The notes under the pieces: generated by a model
The model's database searches: none
The model's input: the letters and a program-made list of their open reading frames with translations, nothing else
What the model was told of the DNA's origin: nothing
In this document: one piece after another, positions 21,801-61,472 of the stretch
Numbering within the stretch: position 1 is the first letter of the stretch
How the letters are laid out: the number at the start of each line of letters is the position of its first letter
Assembly: GCA_034231615.1 (NCBI GenBank)
Contig: CM067322.1
Location: 62,139,032 to 62,203,031 of the forward strand
Origin: Meghimatium bilineatum
Taxonomy: Eukaryota; Mollusca; Gastropoda; Stylommatophora; Philomycidae
Reading direction: 5' to 3'
Length of the DNA: 64,000 bases
Made by a program: the position numbers and the translations under genes

Positions 21801-21818
21801 TGGTCACTGACTTACTAA

Positions 21819-21909
21819 CACTGCGCAACAAAAAAAAGTTTTGTTTTTTTACAAGTATAAAATTAGTCAATTCCTACTGAAAATGGGTTGAGAAAAACGA
21901 ATATGACAT
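21819..21909. repeat. Left terminal inverted repeat of the transposon
   Basis: The outer 12-bp CACTGCGCAACA and the inner 39-bp block beginning TTCCTACTGAAAATG mirror 23919-24000. The 40 bases between are poly-A/T rich and not conserved. Confidence 0.9.
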
Positions 21910-21979
21910 CATAAAATGTTTATTAGCTCTAGTTTTTGAGTTATTGTAATTTCAATATTTGTATTAAAAATCCAATTTC

Positions 21980-23647
21980 TTATTGTTTCCTTTTCCTCTT
22001 GTATACCACTTCTGGAGCTTCTCTTGTGACATTCCAGCAGTAGTCAGCAAGCATGGATGTATTCCACTTACCCTGGTACCTTTTTTCCATCAATGCAATG
22101 TCTTGGTGGAAACGCTCCCCATGTTCATCACTTACTGCACCACAATTTGGAGGGAAGAAATCAAGATGAGAATCCAGGAAGTGGATCTTAAGTGACATGT
22201 TGCAACCTAATTGTTGATATGCTGTCAGAAGTTCATTAATAGCAACAGGATAGTTATCACTTCTATGATTGCCCAGGAAATTTTGTACAACACATTTGAA
22301 AGATTGCCATGCACCTTTCTCATTCCCATGAATAATGGCATCAAAATGCTCATCTTTCAACAGTTCCCTTATCTGTGGGCCTAAAAATAATCCTTCCTTT
22401 ATTTTACCATCACTAAGGTAATGAAATTTTTTCCTCAAGTACTTAAATGCCCCTCCCTCCCTATTCATGCCCTTGATAAAGTTCTTCATTAGCCCCAATT
22501 TAATATGAAGAGGAGGTAGAATTATTTTATTTCTATCAACCAAAGAAATTTGCTGTACATTATTTTCACCAGGCTCCATAACCTTCCTATCAGGCCAAGT
22601 TTTCCTAATGTAATGAGAAGTTCTCTGTCGACTGTCCCATTCACACAGAAAGCAACAATATTTTGTGTAACCTAATTGCATGCCAAGTAAAATTGCAATA
22701 ACTTTCAAGTCTGCACAAACCTGCCACTGATGATCATCATATTTTATTGCTTTAAGAAGTAATTTAATATTTTCATAAGTCTCCTTCATGTTGACAGCAT
22801 GGCCTATAGGGATAGAAGGTAATGAATTGCCATTGTGTAGCAAAACTGCTTTCAAACTTAACTTTGATGAGTCAATGAATAACCTCCACTCTTGTTGTAT
22901 GTGCTCTATTTTCAAAGCTTCCATAAGCCCATTAACATCATGGCAAGCAACAATGCTATTATTCATTGTGAAAAATGGAGTTAGAGATTTCTGACGTTCT
23001 CTGTACATAGACACCTTAACATTTTTATCCAGGAGATTCCACTGCTGAAGTCTTGATGCAAGAAGTTCAGCTTTTGTTTTAGATAAGTCAAGATCTCGAA
23101 TTAAGTCACTTAGTTCATTTTGAGAAATTCTATGTAGAATATCAACAGAACCTATTGGTGTGAATTGAGTATCTTCCTGTTCAAACTCAGGTTGTATTTC
23201 TTGACCACAATCTGCATCAAGCTCTATAACTTTCTGGTTGGGTGAGGTAGGAACAGACAGATCTTTTCCATGTGGTACTGGCCGTATAGCTGATGGAATA
23301 TTGGGGTAATTCAAAGTCCACTTCTTCTTTTTAGATATTCCGTGTTGGAGAGGAGGCACCATACAAAAATAGCAGTCACTTACATGATCTCTCGGCTCTC
23401 TCCATATCATAGGAATCGCGAAAGGCATTGAGCGCACTTTGCCATTCAGCCAACCACAGAGTTTCACAGTACATGTAATACAGCAAATGTGAGGTGCCCA
23501 GGGTTTGTCTTGATCACCTATCTTACAGCCGAAGTAAAGATGATATGCAGTTTTAATTAAAGGTGTAATTTTCCGTTTTTGAGACAACGTCCCCTCGCCA
23601 CAAACATAGCATAAATTGTTAGCACTATTAACGCACTTTCGTGACAT
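21980..23647 (-). CDS. CMC-type transposase, intact 555 aa
   Basis: This is the single open frame of the transposon. The first ATG is at 23647; four further open codons upstream start with TTG. The N-terminus (about 1-100) is cysteine-rich, with CYVC at 13-16, more Cys at 41, 55, 56 and 59, and CYFC at 92-95, and probably binds zinc and DNA. Residues 175-208 look like a SAP-type helix pair. The catalytic half has FIDSSK (Asp 259), CADLKVIAILLGMQL (Asp 313) followed by a C-x2-C (332-335) and His 345, then PPLHIKLGLMKNF (from 378), and finally SDEHGERFHQDI (Glu 508/511). Asp, Asp plus C-x2-C, an LH-x-K block and Glu in this order are the layout of CMC/Tnp2-type DDE transposases. Assignment of the exact catalytic residues is inference. 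No stop or frameshift is present. Confidence 0.85.
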   Translation of the reverse strand: MSRKCVNSANNLCYVCGEGTLSQKRKITPLIKTAYHLYFGCKIGDQDKPWAPHICCITCTVKLCGWLNGKVRSMPFAIPMIWREPRDHVSDCYFCMVPPLQHGISKKKKWTLNYPNIPSAIRPVPHGKDLSVPTSPNQKVIELDADCGQEIQPEFEQEDTQFTPIGSVDILHRISQNELSDLIRDLDLSKTKAELLASRLQQWNLLDKNVKVSMYRERQKSLTPFFTMNNSIVACHDVNGLMEALKIEHIQQEWRLFIDSSKLSLKAVLLHNGNSLPSIPIGHAVNMKETYENIKLLLKAIKYDDHQWQVCADLKVIAILLGMQLGYTKYCCFLCEWDSRQRTSHYIRKTWPDRKVMEPGENNVQQISLVDRNKIILPPLHIKLGLMKNFIKGMNREGGAFKYLRKKFHYLSDGKIKEGLFLGPQIRELLKDEHFDAIIHGNEKGAWQSFKCVVQNFLGNHRSDNYPVAINELLTAYQQLGCNMSLKIHFLDSHLDFFPPNCGAVSDEHGERFHQDIALMEKRYQGKWNTSMLADYCWNVTREAPEVVYKRKRKQ

Positions 23648-23918
23648 TATGGAATCCAATCTTTATACAAATTCAGACATTTATAGCACTGGAAAATAAA
23701 ATATATATATACTACTTGAAAATATTAATTATATACACATGTTGAAATATGTGGTTTGTTTTTTACATCAACACACGATTTAAACAATATAGTGGCCATT
23801 GAGAGAAGTCGCACGGTGTCAACATGCATTTGTCGCTGAATAAATTTTTCCTTTTCCACTTTTTTCGACACAATAAACAAGGAATATCACAACAATAAGA
23901 GCAAACTGAGAATTTTTA

Positions 23919-24000
23919 ATGTGATATTCATTTTTCTCACCACATTTTCAGTAGGAAATGATTATTTTCATGTCTGTAATTTTTTATGTGTTGCACAGTG
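23919..24000. repeat. Right terminal inverted repeat of the transposon
   Basis: Mirror of the left end; it ends CAGTG at 24000. The inner block differs from the left one at four positions. Confidence 0.9.
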
Positions 24001-24299
24001 TTATGGAGTGATGCTGGAGGAGAAAATGGACACATACAAATAATGACAGAAATAGGGGTGAGGGGAAAAAGTGTGACCTCTAGGGAAAGGATTAGGTGAT
24101 CACATAATTAACATCTGACTGGGATTGAGTATTAAGACTGAAGCATACTCTTAGATGGCTGCTGTAACAGAAAACAGTGCACTTATGGGGGTATATCATG
24201 TGCCATGATGCTGGTTTCTAATCACGTGCTGGTTTCTAATCAAGCTTGGCACTGACAAACAACTATGCTGAATACCAAATTTAGACTTTCACCTAAAGT

Positions 24300-28169: not shown

Positions 28170-29714
28170 GTTTTACATCTATAGCATAAATGGTCAAACA
28201 TTGCCAAAAGATGAGACACCTACATACTTTGGAGTCACTTTTGATCCAAGACTTACATGGAAACAGCACATAGACAAGTGCCAAACAAAAGGTACAATGA
28301 GGACAGCACTCCTTAAAAAATTGGCTGGAACAGATTGGGGTGCAAATGGAAAAATTCTAAGTAGAGCATATATAGGTTATGTAAGACCAGCCTTGGAATA
28401 TGGAATGTCAGCATGGGTGACTGCAGCCAAGAGTAACACTCAAAAGATCTCAAAGATACAAAACCGCAATCTCAGAATTATAACAGGAGGTATGAATACT
28501 ACCCCAATCACAGAAATGGAAACATGTACAGGTTTGCCATCAGTGGAAGAAAGAAGAAATGAAAAAATCCTCACACAGTATGCAAAGTTCAAATGTTTGG
28601 AGAGTCATCAAATGAACCACAGACTAAGCAGACCTACAAAAGAGCGACTCAAAAAAGGTAGCTTTCTACACTCCACTAAACAGCTACAAAAATCACTCAC
28701 AGATACAGACCTACAAAACCTAAAACCACTAAACACCTTTAACATATACCCAACATGGGACAGGAAAAACTTCCCAAGAATTATGGACAATATACCAAGC
28801 ATTATTTCGAAAACAGAAACTACTATACAAGTACTAAAGGAGACAACTAAGAATCACATACAGAAAGCATACCCAAAGGATATATGGACACATGTATATA
28901 CAGATGGATCAGCGAAAGAGGCAGTACTAGATGGAGGATCAGGAATATATATAGTAACACCAGATGGAAAAGAAATAGAGAAATCCATACCCACAGGCAA
29001 ACATTCCACAAATTTCAAAGCAGAAATGGAAGCCATAATAGAGGCAGCCAAAATGCTCATGAATTGCTTGCCGAGTCACAACAGACATGTAGTATTTCTA
29101 ACGGATGCAAAATCAGTATTGCAGGCATTGAAAGATCCAAAGAACACGAGCATGAATGAACTTACGGCCTGCTTACTACACCTCAGCAGTACCACCAAAG
29201 AAACAGTACTGCAGTGGATCCCAGGTCACTGTGGCATACCTGGAAATGAAAAAGCTGATCTCCTGGCAAGGAAACGGGGATCACTGGAACAAATAGAAAA
29301 TGATAATACGTACTATGAAAGTAAGACCATGTTAAAAGCAGAATATAAGAAAAAGTGGAAGCAAATGAACCCAACTGCAGAACCAAATGACCCCTACCAC
29401 CAAATGTCACGCAAGGAACAAACCATCATTTTCAGACTACGAACTGGTCACAACAGACTGAGAAGTCACATGTTCCGAAAGCTGAAGATTGGTGAGACAG
29501 ACCTGTGCAACTGTGGACTGAGCCCAGAGACTGCAGAACACATTCTTCATGCATGTCAACTCTACTAAGAAGAGAGGGAGAAAATATGGCCTACTGAGAC
29601 GGCACTGCTTCCAGACTTGAGGGGTTCCATGGATGACCTGAAGCGAATCACACAATTCATTGAAGCTATTGGTGCTGTAACCTGATATCTGACTGAAGAA
29701 CGATGAAGAAGAAG
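28170..29714 (+). mobile_element. 5'-truncated LINE with open 455-codon frame
   Basis: The insertion starts inside the RT thumb and runs through RNase H to a 3' UTR ending GAACGATGAAGAAGAAG. Its reading frame is uninterrupted, so it is comparatively young. It is the same broad family as 44730-48655, but clearly diverged in protein sequence. Confidence 0.88.
28201..29568 (+). CDS. LINE polyprotein, C-terminal half (RT thumb, RNase H, zinc knuckle)
   Basis: Partial gene without its own start; the first open codon is TTG. PTYFGVTFDPRLTWKQHID opens the RT thumb, and the connection follows. RNase H spans about residues 220-365: YTDGSAKEA gives the first Asp, AEMEAI the Glu, LTDAKSVL the second Asp, and WIPGHCGIPGNEKADLLA the last His and Asp. 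All four acid positions are intact. The C-terminus has RLRTGHNRLRSHMFRKLKIG and a C-x-C-x8-H-x4-C knuckle (CNCGLSPETAEHILHAC), then the stop. The endonuclease and RT palm are absent, so the copy cannot move alone. Confidence 0.88.
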   Translation: MPKDETPTYFGVTFDPRLTWKQHIDKCQTKGTMRTALLKKLAGTDWGANGKILSRAYIGYVRPALEYGMSAWVTAAKSNTQKISKIQNRNLRIITGGMNTTPITEMETCTGLPSVEERRNEKILTQYAKFKCLESHQMNHRLSRPTKERLKKGSFLHSTKQLQKSLTDTDLQNLKPLNTFNIYPTWDRKNFPRIMDNIPSIISKTETTIQVLKETTKNHIQKAYPKDIWTHVYTDGSAKEAVLDGGSGIYIVTPDGKEIEKSIPTGKHSTNFKAEMEAIIEAAKMLMNCLPSHNRHVVFLTDAKSVLQALKDPKNTSMNELTACLLHLSSTTKETVLQWIPGHCGIPGNEKADLLARKRGSLEQIENDNTYYESKTMLKAEYKKKWKQMNPTAEPNDPYHQMSRKEQTIIFRLRTGHNRLRSHMFRKLKIGETDLCNCGLSPETAEHILHACQLY

Positions 29715-29899: not shown

Positions 29900-30860
29900 T
29901 ATATATATATATTTACATGCACTGCTATTTTCTGGGAATACGCCATACCTTCACCTTTTTTTCCTTTGGTTATGAGAATGAACCTAAAATTTTGTAGTTT
30001 TCCTATCCATGAAAACAAAAATTCTATCATGAAACTCGAAAGGTCATATCTATTTTTTTCTGAACGATCAAGGACATTGACTCACTGTATATGGTATGTC
30101 TAGAAAAAGTATCATGTTATGGAATTATAGCTGACATCACCCACTTTCCCCCTGGTAGCATAATGATCTCAGGCTGACTGTAGCCTTAACATGATTTTCA
30201 CACAAAATAAGTATGTAGTGGCTATTTATAGAAGTATTTTTCCAGAATAATTCTTTGTGTGGATCCCAAATGTCCTTTAATTTTGCTCATTCAACTGTCC
30301 TGTGTTTTTCATTGGATGGCGAATCAAAGTATATGCAAAATGGTCAATGATCAGAGGCATCAGCCAGGTAAGTAATGATGTGGATTAGCGCACATGATTT
30401 ATTGGGATAAGGGCTTTCCATCTCCAGAGCATGTATGTATTGTGAATGTAAAGTAGAAAGTATTTTCATTACCAAGACTTGGATAAAACCCTTTTGTTGA
30501 GTCTAGATTCCAGATAATACAATTCAGAACTTTGTCTCCACACAAATGAGCTAAAGGAGTTAAGGGAAAAAAGAAAGAATGCTTTCTAGCCAAATATCAA
30601 ACTTTTTAAAGGTACATATCATGATTATGTGCAGTCTCTGTAATGAGGGATGGCTGCAGTGGACTTTCAACATCCCCTGTCATTTGCCTTGGTTGTGCAC
30701 TATGCTATACTATAGGTATGTTTCATATATCAACAATTAAAAAAAATATTTTCAAAGTAATGAATTGTTTTTGTGTGTATTATAAGGGGGGGGGGGTGTG
30801 GGAGAAAAGAGGGGAAAGACGCCATTACAATGTGTAAATACTGCATTAAACGTACAACAG
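29900..30860. other. No gene seen
   Basis: No recognised coding or repeat signal apart from short TA runs near 29905 and a poly-G run at 30786-30796. Confidence 0.45.
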
Positions 30861-44765: not shown

Positions 44766-46025
44766 ATGCCACGCACAAAACACAATGGAAACATGTCTGT
44801 ATCTATAAAAAGTTATGGTGCCTGCCCTGTGGCGGAAGTTCAGGCAGGGACGGTGCCGGGCCCTATACCTCGAAAGGGCCCAACCTCAGTTACTGAAAGT
44901 CCTTCTCAATTGCCCCGAGGAGCCAGGAGGCAAGGGAATAGAGCTACTGGCCAAACAAACTTTAAACAACCAAATAAAAATAATGCACTGGAATGCTGAG
45001 GGTATCAACAGTAAAAGTGATGGATACATCAAAAAATTGGAACTTGAAAATGTCCAGTGAAGAACAAGTTAATATATGCTGTATCCAAGAAACACACCTC
45101 AGCAGCGACATAGCCTTCAAAATCAGAGGCTACCAGTGCTACCGATCTGACCGAAAGGACAGGCGAAAGGGTGGAATTCTGACACTTGTTAAAAACAATA
45201 TCAGCGCATGTCAGCTGGAAGTATATATGGAAGGGGCAGAATACCAGATGCTCCACCTAAAAATAGACTGCAGAATTCCATCTCCTGAACTACTACTGCC
45301 CAAATGATAAACCATTGGCACTAGACACAATTCCAGATAAAGAGAGGCTTGTGGTGTGTGGTAACTTCAACAGCCACTCTAAGAGCTGGGGCTACGATCA
45401 TATCGACAAGAGAGGTGAGGAACTTGAGAGCTGGCAGGATGAAAATAATCTCATCCTTATTAACCAGCCAGCTGACTCACCAACCTTCTACTCGAGAGCA
45501 TGGCACACCACCTCTACACCAGATCTGGCATTCCACTCACCAGGCATGGAATGGAACATCACACGTCTCGTTGGAAAGCAGCTTGGGGGTAGTGACCACA
45601 GACCAGTATTTCTGGAAATCCACAATGAATTTACCAAGGACAGCAGCACGCTCACTAGGTGGAACTATAAGAGGGCAGACTGGAAAATGTACCAGCATTT
45701 AACCAGTGTTCTAGCTAAGGACATGAACTTGGACAAAGACATCAATAGAGCAGTGAGTGAATTTAATAGATGTATACTACATGCTGCTAGTAAAACCATA
45801 CGCAGGGGGGCACGCAAAAACTACAAACCCTACTGGAATGATGAACTGGAAAAGCTGCAAAATGAGATGGAAACATCTAGACAGCAGTCTGAGAACAGAC
45901 CTAGCCAAGAACATCACAACAAATATCAGCAAACAAAGGCTAAATTTCAAAGAGCCAAGTTACAAGCCAGACGGAGTAGCTGGAAAGATAAAAACAGAGT
46001 CGCTGAACCTAGAAAGAGATACTAG
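44766..46025 (+). pseudogene. LINE endonuclease region, frameshifted
   Basis: Endonuclease motifs are spread over four frames: MHWNAEGI at ~44980, CCIQETHL at ~45080 (the QE-T-H metal-binding motif), then RKGGILTLVKNNI, VVCGNFNSHSKSWGY at ~45350 (normally GDFN-x-H), and GSDHRPVFLEI at ~45590 (the final SDH catalytic motif). Frame changes fall near 44955, 45050, 45285 and 45988. Each is consistent with a one- or two-base slip, because the protein reads on in another frame. GDFN is GNFN here. The endonuclease cannot be made as one protein from this copy. Confidence 0.88.
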
Positions 46026-48528
46026 GAAATTATGGAAACTTGTAAAACAACTAAATGATGAAGGTACAGGGAGAAATACCAGGATCACACTTTATAAAGA
46101 TAGAAACATTTTAACAAGTAAACATGCGGCTGATTACTTTGCAGATTCCTTTGCAGAAGACAATAACATCAAAGTCATCCCAGACAAACAACAGGAGGTT
46201 CGAGAGAACCAGCAAAAAATTGGACAAGGCGAACCTATACCTGAAGTCATGGAGGCACCAATCACAATGAGAGAACTGGAGCATGCAATATCCAAATTGA
46301 AAATGAAAAAGTCCCCTGGAGCTGATGGAGTGTCCAATAAAATGATTAGAAACCTGGGAATTGCAGCAAGAGCAAAGCTACTGCAGATCTTTAACACAAG
46401 CTGGTCCACGGGTAATGTACCACAGGCGTGGAGAGAAGCAATAATGATACCACTCCTCAAATCAAGAAAAGATGGCAACACAGTCTCCAACTACATGCCC
46501 ATCAGCCTCACAAGCTGTCTATGCAAAACAATGGAACGCATTGTTAATCTTAGGATGCAGTGGTACCTTGAAAGTGAAAACCTTCTGGTATCACAGCAAG
46601 CAGGTTTCAGACAGTGCTACTCTACTGAATATCAGGCAACCTACCTCTCCCAAGAGATTGAGGATGCCTTCCAAGAAAAGAAACTGGTACTAGAAGCATG
46701 GATAGACCCCAGAAAAGCATTTAATAAGGTCTGGAAAGAAGGGCTCCTAAAGAAATTGCGAAATTGCAGGGTTAGCTCAAGAATGTACAAATGGGTAAAA
46801 GCATACCTGCATAATAGAAGAGCCAGTGTACAATTAGATGGTCGCAAGAGCAAGAAAGTTCTACTGCGTCATGGAGTCCCCCAGGGAGGAGTCCTGTCGC
46901 CCACACTTTTCTTGGTTTACATCAATGACCTAGTTGCTGAACTACCACACGGGATCAAAGTGGCAGTGTATGCTGACGACCTGGTGATCTGGTGCACAGA
47001 AGAACATGCGACAGTGGCCACTAAACAAATACAAAGAGCTATCGATGCCCTAACCTTATGGGCTAATAGATGGTGCGTCAGCATTAACACAGATAAGTGC
47101 AGCACTACACTTTTTACCCTCTCACCAAAACAAAAAGCCGGTCATATCAATATAGATGGAGAGCTCTTGAAAGAAGACAAACAACCCACATATCTCGGAG
47201 TTACTTTTGATGATAAACTGATATGGAAGCAGCACATAAACAAAGCAACAACAAAAGCCAGGAGGAAGTTAGCTATCCTGAGAAAACTAAGTGGAACCAC
47301 ATGGGGAGCCAGTGGGAATATACTCAGTAAAGTTTACCAGCAAGGCATAAGACCACACCTGGAATATGGTTCAGCTGCGTGGTGTCCTGCATCAAACACC
47401 ACATTACAAGATCTAGATAAAGTGCAAAACCAGGCACTTAGAATAATGTTGGGAGCAATGAAATCAACACCCATAGCAGAGATGCAGAAAATGGGAAGAA
47501 TGCAAACACTTGGCGAACGCAGAGACACAAAAGTACTAATTCAGGCAGAAAAGTTTCAGTGTATGCCAAGTCATCCAATGAAGGAAAGATTCCAAAATCT
47601 AGCAATGGGACGACTGAAAAGAAGCAGCTTTATCCATCATGCTAAACGACTCCGCAGACAACTTACAGACCTACCTGAAGTTGACAGCCCCTTAAGGCCT
47701 GTACCAGAACAAACCCCGTGGAGTGAAAGGCATGTAATGCCAATATACATTCAGACCCATGTGAAAGGAATACTAAGCGAGGACGAACAGAACAGTGTGC
47801 AGCGAAGGACAGTCACCCTCAGTTTCCTGGATGAGGAATATCCACAAGATATATGGGTCAGAGTATACACAGATGGGTCAGCACAGAATGCTGTGAGGAA
47901 TGGAGGTGCAGGTGTATATATAGAATATCCACACAAGCCTAGAGATACCATCAGAACACCGACAGGAAAATTCTGCAATAATTATGATGCAGAAATCCAG
48001 GCAATTAGTGTGGCAGCTAAAAAACTGCTGAACTCCAACTCTGACCTACAGCCTGTGGTATTTCTGACAGATGCAAGGTCAGTGCTTCAAGCACTCCAGT
48101 CTGGAAAACTAACAGACTTGAAAAAACTACTTAGCAAATTGTCTTACCAGTATAGGGTAACCATGCAGTGGATACCCTCTTACTGTGGAATAACAGGAAA
48201 TGAAAAAGCAGACCAACTGGCTAAGGAAGGTGCTGCCGAAGACCAACCAGATATACCAATCACCTACCATCAGAAAAAACAGATGATCAAGTCAATAAGA
48301 AAGCCACAAACACCAACACAAGATGACTATCATATTATGAACAGACCAGAGCAAGTTATAATTCTACGTCTCAGAACAGGACACAACCGACTCCGCAGTT
48401 ACATGTATACAAAGTTCAAGATTGGCAACACAGCCATGTGTACATGTGGACAGGCAGCACAGAGTGCCAAACATATACTTCAAGAGTGTTCTGAGTATGA
48501 AATGCTGAGGCAGACATATTGGCCATAG
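45757..48528 (+). CDS. LINE reverse transcriptase-RNase H, open 923-codon frame
   Basis: True protein starts near 45990 (LNLERDTRKLWKLVKQL); the first ~75 codons are a shadow of the neighbouring frame. RT: KMKKSPGADGVSNKMI, WREAIMIPLLK, QQAGFRQCYSTEYQ, AWIDPRKAFNKVW (first Asp), HGVPQGGVLSPTLFLVYIND, VYADDLVIW at ~46968 (catalytic pair intact), PTYLGVTFDDKL. RNase H: VYTDGSAQNAV at 47863, YDAEIQAI, FLTDARSVLQ, then MQWIPSYCGITGNEKADQLA, where the usual PGHCG/PSHCG His is Tyr. A CTCGQAAQSAKHILQEC knuckle precedes the end. RT looks usable; RNase H has lost one conserved residue and the endonuclease is broken upstream. Confidence 0.9.
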   Translation: MNLIDVYYMLLVKPYAGGHAKTTNPTGMMNWKSCKMRWKHLDSSLRTDLAKNITTNISKQRLNFKEPSYKPDGVAGKIKTESLNLERDTRKLWKLVKQLNDEGTGRNTRITLYKDRNILTSKHAADYFADSFAEDNNIKVIPDKQQEVRENQQKIGQGEPIPEVMEAPITMRELEHAISKLKMKKSPGADGVSNKMIRNLGIAARAKLLQIFNTSWSTGNVPQAWREAIMIPLLKSRKDGNTVSNYMPISLTSCLCKTMERIVNLRMQWYLESENLLVSQQAGFRQCYSTEYQATYLSQEIEDAFQEKKLVLEAWIDPRKAFNKVWKEGLLKKLRNCRVSSRMYKWVKAYLHNRRASVQLDGRKSKKVLLRHGVPQGGVLSPTLFLVYINDLVAELPHGIKVAVYADDLVIWCTEEHATVATKQIQRAIDALTLWANRWCVSINTDKCSTTLFTLSPKQKAGHINIDGELLKEDKQPTYLGVTFDDKLIWKQHINKATTKARRKLAILRKLSGTTWGASGNILSKVYQQGIRPHLEYGSAAWCPASNTTLQDLDKVQNQALRIMLGAMKSTPIAEMQKMGRMQTLGERRDTKVLIQAEKFQCMPSHPMKERFQNLAMGRLKRSSFIHHAKRLRRQLTDLPEVDSPLRPVPEQTPWSERHVMPIYIQTHVKGILSEDEQNSVQRRTVTLSFLDEEYPQDIWVRVYTDGSAQNAVRNGGAGVYIEYPHKPRDTIRTPTGKFCNNYDAEIQAISVAAKKLLNSNSDLQPVVFLTDARSVLQALQSGKLTDLKKLLSKLSYQYRVTMQWIPSYCGITGNEKADQLAKEGAAEDQPDIPITYHQKKQMIKSIRKPQTPTQDDYHIMNRPEQVIILRLRTGHNRLRSYMYTKFKIGNTAMCTCGQAAQSAKHILQECSEYEMLRQTYWP

Positions 48529-60667: not shown

Positions 60668-60866
60668 AAGCCTATCTGCATTTTCGACGACTAATATTTG
60701 TATTACAACTTCCGCGATATTTTTTTTTGATGTGATTGTCTCGTTTTATTTGGATTAATTTCTGATCTCAAGATTTCTAAATGCATCGTCGTACGGCAGG
60801 ATTTGGGTAAATTTCATTCCCTGGTCAAGGACCAGTTATCGGGCTTGAGTGCACGAGGGAGTCAAA

Positions 60867-61199
60867 ATGGTCTTCTTCAACGGTTCCGTGAAAATAAAGA
60901 TCTGCGAGGCAGTGGATCTGAAGCCGACTAACTTCTCCATACGTCTGCACATGAAGGCCTCGCAGATGATTGAACCATACGTTAATATAGGTGTAGATGA
61001 AGTGTATGTGGCTAAGACGACCACGAAGACTAAAAGTATGAAGCCACAATGGATCTGGAATGAAGATTTCACTTCTGAAGTTCACAACGGACAGAATTTA
61101 AATTTGACAGTTTTTCACGACGCTGCTATTCCACCCGACGAGTTTGTGGCAAATTGTACTATTCCCTTTGATGATGTCAAAGAAAAATCAGATCTTTGG
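60867..61199 (+). CDS. PRKCE: Novel protein kinase C (epsilon/eta type), first coding exon
   Basis: ATG at 60867 opens [20 protein letters not shown]; the exon ends EKSDLW at a GTAAGT donor in phase 0, 111 codons. It is the N-terminal, calcium-independent C2 domain of PKC epsilon/eta (fly Pkc98E, Aplysia Apl II). [40 protein letters not shown] and [10 protein letters not shown] are near-identical to that family. Key calcium-binding aspartates of classical C2 domains are missing, as expected for a novel isoform. Odd: [10 protein letters not shown] has two residues more than the usual KPxWNE, as if a Trp-containing pair was inserted. The full kinase (C1 pair, catalytic domain) lies beyond the window. 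Confidence 0.97.
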
Positions 61200-61472
61200 G
61201 TAAGTTGGACTTTCATTATAGCTTCAGATTTTAAATTTCTTAATGCTCATGCAAAGCTTGGCAGCGGTAGCCATTTTCTACCTCAGATTTCGAACACCTC
61301 ATCCGGACATTTTCTGATTTCAACTCTTCTTATAAATTATAACTTGGTTTCTTTATTAATACCCATTTATCCGTAGTTCCACCAATATTTCCTCTATCCA
61401 GTATGCTTAATAAAGTGTATGTCTTGACAAGAAGCGAACGGGTCCTAATTGTTTACCGTGTCTGTTCTTTAG
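61200..61472 (+). other. Kinase C intron 1, 273 bp
   Basis: GTAAGT donor and TGTTCTTTAG acceptor. The reading frame happens to stay open for 59 more codons past the donor, but these have no PKC similarity. Confidence 0.93.

Follow-up and report, generated by a model that had tools for sequence, protein, structure and literature searches.

What kind of element lies between the matching ends at positions 21,819 and 24,000 of the 64,000-nucleotide stretch of the Meghimatium bilineatum genome analysed here (the window; contig CM067322.1, positions 62,139,032 to 62,203,031), and has it moved recently? An earlier sequence-only reading had described an apparently intact DNA transposon with a CMC-type transposase that lacked a family name. 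Overall, our analysis indicates that the element very probably belongs to an autonomous Chapaev3 cut-and-paste family that is present in many copies and was recently amplified in this gastropod genome. It is placed in Chapaev3 by published hallmarks, and the copy in the window seems to be drifting. The coordinates of its features are collected in Table 1.

Within the window, the end motif gave two matches when up to two mismatches were allowed, both mismatch-free, compared to a mean of 0.75 in shuffled sequences, 21 of 100 of which had at least two; as this is not beyond chance, the proof of a transposon comes from whole-genome counts. A search of the window's own genome (1,612,235,226 bases on 32 contigs) with the element returned 826 candidate places, the best 40 of which were scored, one of these being the window copy. 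The 39 others were approximately 98% identical to the element, lay on many contigs and all reached its end, and the scored copies began at element base 1, except for one that began at base 4. CAC was present at the aligned start of 39 of the 40 copies (copy L027 appears without its first three bases in the alignment) and GTG at the end of all 40, while the CACTG terminus was found in the 40-copy consensus and in 39 copies. The 16-mer ATWACACTGCGCAACA, comprising the end plus the target, occurred at 232 exact sites (117 on one strand and 115 on the other), compared to none in the whole genome for its reversed control. Among the first 100 of these 232 places, 74 formed 37 plus/minus pairs of 2,095–2,768 bp (median 2,194 bp). 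The results below draw on two samples: the window copy and the 39 best-scored others with 100-bp flanks, a sample biased to good copies, and 20 more copies picked by their perfect ends with approximately 3-kb flanks, biased to perfect-ended copies.

The target duplication of the family is 3 bp long and mostly TWA (W, A or T) between A and T. Flanking triplets were identical in 35 of the 40 best-scored copies, the window copy included; 31 carried identical TWA triplets and 28 the full A-TWA...TWA-T form, compared to 0–2 of 40 at six shifted control offsets. The triplet of L027 was set three bases further out because its first three bases are unaligned. Flanking triplets also agreed in all 20 copies of the perfect-ends sample, for which TWA was a selection criterion but agreement was not. 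In the window copy the two triplets differ, so that no intact duplication flanks it; the TWA signature is visible for the family only.

Empty sites were searched by comparing the joined flanks of the 60 copies to 270 kb of sequence, which gave 38 spanning matches, and eight copy-and-place pairs were inspected. Three were clean paralogous empty sites with a single TWA each: a single ATTAT for L062 onto L064 (90.7% over 388 columns) and for L023 onto the same L064 place (77.9% over 199 columns), and a single ATAAT for L047 onto L053 (87.9% over 149 columns). Two further pairs had a gapless junction but a changed triplet (L018 onto window 30247–30406; L011 onto L054), and the remaining three had gaps at or close to the junction (L011 onto L049, L030 onto L067, L034 onto L049). 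No match within the 270 kb spanned the joined flanks of the window copy.

Some flanks were of interest in their own right. L062 and L023 occupy one ATTAT position of one repeat family (L064:591–971), a hint of target preference. The repeat at window 30247–30406, 75% identical over 164 columns to the L018 flanks and ungapped at the insertion point, is a likely empty-site relative. Within their own loci, the flanks of L015 (same place as L008) and of L051 each have many matches of approximately 80–90%, as if these copies lay in tandem arrays.

The terminal repeats of the window copy pair at 11 of 12 positions. In the consensus the right end pairs perfectly with the left, while in the window copy it carries one CpG-type change that is common to one of the 39 others. 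Further inwards, the 39-nt subterminal blocks, likely the transposase binding site, are enclosed by 97-nt inverted arms (21849–21945 and 23883–23979, 75% complementary). We confirmed the matching ends, the second inverted block (its pairing, counted by eye before, was the same on recount) and the single stop-free frame of 555 codons that the sequence-only reading had given. The window copy is of full length and has an altered right end, unequal target triplets and two private deletions.

In the protein encoded by this frame, D259, D313, C332-x2-C335, PPLH-x-K (378–383, with LH at 380–381), H489/H494 and E511 follow one another, in agreement with the order of Asp, Asp with C-x2-C, PPLH-x-K and Glu noted earlier. 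D259, D313, C332, C335, L380, H381, H489, H494 and E511 were invariant in 113 aligned sequences; D259, D313 and E511 are likely the catalytic triad, and C332/C335 together with H489/H494 likely a zinc motif. According to PMC4079192, Chapaev elements begin with CAC, end with GTG and encode the motifs C(2)C, LH and H(4)H, and Chapaev3 elements (Garfield, Merrow, Conan) duplicate a TWA target lying between A and T, as confirmed there by empty sites. The family here has the same CAC...GTG inverted ends, TWA in an A/T context and a DDE (Asp, Asp, Glu) transposase with all three motifs. Because of the target duplication and its context, the ends, the motifs, the size and the single exon, the earlier assignment to CMC, correct but too broad, can be narrowed to Chapaev3. 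That the element is intron-free and far smaller than typical CACTA elements was rightly observed, but this is ordinary for Chapaev3: Garfield_BM has 2,289 bp and a 556-aa transposase, and full-length Garfield and Merrow elements range from 2.29 to 2.46 kb with transposases of approximately 556–562 aa (PMC4079192).

Alternatively, a small intron-free CACTA/EnSpm element of the Tnp2 type might occupy the locus, which we consider very unlikely. EnSpm, Mirage, Chapaev, Transib and others are grouped as CMCT by common C(2)C and H(3-4)H motifs; CMC elements share a DDE transposase with these motifs and mostly CA..TG ends, and EnSpm also gives 3-bp duplications (PMC12730594). However, the ends here are CACTG, not CACTA, and a TWA target in an A/T context is the published signature of Chapaev3 (PMC4079192). 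Pfam returned no family for the window protein at E values up to 10, hence no match to a Tnp2-type or a SAP family. CACTA/EnSpm elements also differ from the family here in size and gene content.

Within Chapaev3, the best protein relative among the matches listed was 71% identical, and the family is therefore treated as a new one of this known group, set apart by protein identity, and not as a small CACTA element. As in the Chapaev3 elements of PMC4079192, most changes are copy-specific. Garfield and Merrow have two exons compared to one here, other Chapaev3 elements apparently having mostly one (PMC4079192). The elements in that source have short non-autonomous derivatives, whereas none of the 37 end pairs found here among the first 100 of 232 places was shorter than 2 kb, the only search made for such copies. 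The host here is a gastropod, a group absent from table 1 of PMC4079192, although the outgroup used there includes Chapaev elements of Aplysia (their abbreviation is resolved in PMC4411706). None of the papers listed by a literature search for Chapaev in snails or molluscs named Chapaev, so that this search was uninformative, and for Lanisha, considered as a rival group, nothing further was found among the matches listed.

The best structural matches of the predicted fold were RAG1, one HzTransib structure and BbRAGL, with 11–15% identity over the aligned part. The predicted structure has a RAG1-like catalytic core fold, suggesting that the transposase is a RAG1/Transib-type DDE enzyme. The same matches could point to a Transib/ProtoRAG-type element, a reading to which we give even less credence than to CACTA/EnSpm given the low identity of the structural alignments and a target duplication of 3 bp, compared to 5 bp in Transib, RAG1 and ProtoRAG. 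Moreover, when the protein and two alignments were compared to PDB sequences, the matches were at chance level only and included no solved Transib or RAG1 chain, and no second gene was seen beside the transposase in the element. The RAG1 match is also relevant to the helix pair that had been read as SAP-like. Two helices are indeed predicted (176–185 and 190–202), but the RAG1 match starts at approximately residues 171–173 of the model, onto approximately 459–461 of mouse RAG1, and because the pair lies at this start it may belong to the RAG1-like core instead of forming a separate SAP domain.

The placement proposed here applies to a protein type for which the protein search returned 2,310 relatives at E values up to 0.001 and whose member in the window has no Pfam match. 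In 32 members, Pfam gave weak matches to 18 families, none of them a transposase family. No relatives were found in phages or viral contigs, BFVD gave nothing below an E value of 0.001, and no named Chapaev3 sequence was found among the protein relatives, phages or viral contigs searched.

Chapaev3 proteins are described with an N-terminal Chapa zinc domain (PMC4411706). Here, C13, C16, C56, C59, H88, C92 and C95 were invariant in the 32 members, C13 and C16 only nearly so in the 113 sequences. Residues 8–71, with two C-x2-C pairs, are predicted to form a ZAD-like fold with weak scores, and all five matches listed by VIA-align were ZADs, the domain (zf-AD) of insect C2H2 transcription factors and ZNF276. 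By hhalign against four ZADs, 28 columns around the second C-x2-C pair aligned with a probability of 1.4% and an E value of 0.036, a score equalled in 14 of 200 column shuffles; as this is not significant, kinship with ZAD is not claimed. In the Pfam search of the 32 members, zf-AD matched the most members (three, best E 0.24), but RT_RNaseH_2 (two members) had a better E value of 0.0059 and other chance families were similar to zf-AD. No literature joining Chapaev or RAG1 to ZAD was found among the matches listed. We regard it as rather unlikely that the Chapaev3 zinc domain is a true relative of the ZAD of C2H2 transcription factors. If it were, the many ZAD proteins of insects, and ZNF276 of vertebrates, would have an ancestor in common with a RAG1-class transposase, and the region would serve the transposase as a dimerisation module. 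Already the resemblance, if it holds, would link a transcription-factor domain to the Chapaev3-type transposase class.

The 40 best-scored copies differ from their consensus by 0.55–1.00% (mean 0.77%) and the 20 perfect-ends copies by 0.64–1.37%, giving 0.55–1.37% for all sixty. The mean pairwise difference among the 39 others was 1.47%, approximately twice the mean distance to the consensus, and 466 of 673 substitutions in the 40 copies were confined to one copy, a pattern that fits a star-like history. Judged from these distances, the family seems to have spread in a recent burst that started from few source copies. The window copy carries 18 substitutions compared to the consensus, 14 of them absent from the 39 others, two private deletions, one of 3 bp in the frame and one of 9 bp beyond it, and 10 amino-acid differences. 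Of the recent or current mobility suggested earlier, recent mobility of the family is supported, while the case for current mobility of the window copy is weak because of these changes and its unequal triplets.

An open frame of 550–570 codons was present in 19 of the 40 best-scored copies, and the longest frame reached 550 codons in just one of the 20 perfect-ends copies. One open copy, L018, has a normal-length frame yet 28 amino-acid differences from the consensus, compared to 3–12 in the other 18, perhaps due to compensating frameshifts. Over the 40 copies, 297 nonsynonymous and 66 synonymous in-frame changes and 30 stops were counted; the nonsynonymous to synonymous ratio of 4.50, compared to 3.51 expected from the same copies' substitution spectrum, gives no sign of purifying selection after insertion. 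These counts, as well as the many copies of approximately 98% identity on many contigs, argue against a domesticated, transposase-derived host gene that has kept the ends as relics, an explanation that the open frame of the window copy would allow but to which we assign next to no probability. Substitutions were denser outside the frame than inside (13.4 versus 5.9 per kb; 9.0 versus 5.7 without sites variable in at least four copies), which could be caused by past selection on source copies or by alignment noise in A/T runs.

By analogy, the transposase of this autonomous Chapaev3 element, if active, would bind both the 12-bp ends and the inverted blocks further inwards, pair the element ends and cut next to CACTG. 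Insertion of the excised DNA at A-TWA-T, staggered by 3 bp, would then leave each copy flanked by TWA. In RAG and Transib, cleavage leaves a hairpin on the flank, and the same chemistry may apply here. Near-identical copies, matching duplications and empty sites point to a recent Chapaev3-type burst in a gastropod, and as some copies retain open frames and the element has clearly delimited ends, Chapaev3 transposition would lend itself to laboratory tests. Its predicted core fold is shared with RAG1, an enzyme of the human immune system.

Table 1 Features of the element and its flanks (window positions).
Feature	Position	Strand	Details
Complete DNA transposon copy, Chapaev3-type by hallmarks	21819..24000	-	2,182 bp; consensus of 40 copies 2,194 bp
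Left terminal inverted repeat	21819..21830	+	CACTGCGCAACA; 3' side of transposase gene
Right terminal inverted repeat	23989..24000	-	TGTTGCACAGTG; ends at 24000
Subterminal inverted block, left arm	21871..21909	+	35/39 paired with right arm
Subterminal inverted block, right arm	23919..23957	-	35/39 paired with left arm
Transposase gene	21980..23647	-	555 codons + stop; ATG at 23647, TAA at 21980-21982
N-terminal zinc region, residues 1-135	23243..23647	-	conserved C13, C16, C56, C59, H88, C92, C95
Left target-site triplet	21816..21818	+	TAA, preceded by C; unequal to right triplet
Right target-site triplet	24001..24003	+	TTA, followed by T; unequal to left triplet

Elsewhere on the plus strand of the window, a retrotransposon of the long interspersed nuclear element (LINE) type lies at 45757–48528, with gastropod relatives (best match of any source 89%); the best named relatives of its frame (45757–48525) are from Bradybaena (73% over 68% of the query), Littorina (56%) and Batillaria (51%). 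An overlapping frame at 45315–46025 looks like the putative endonuclease part of that LINE, and 28201–29568 holds the remnant of another LINE-like element, in which Pfam recognised an RNase H domain (E 4.8e-15). A probable host exon at 60849–61376 encodes a C2 domain (Pfam E 4.1e-14) and resembles what we take to be the N-terminus of a novel-type protein kinase C.
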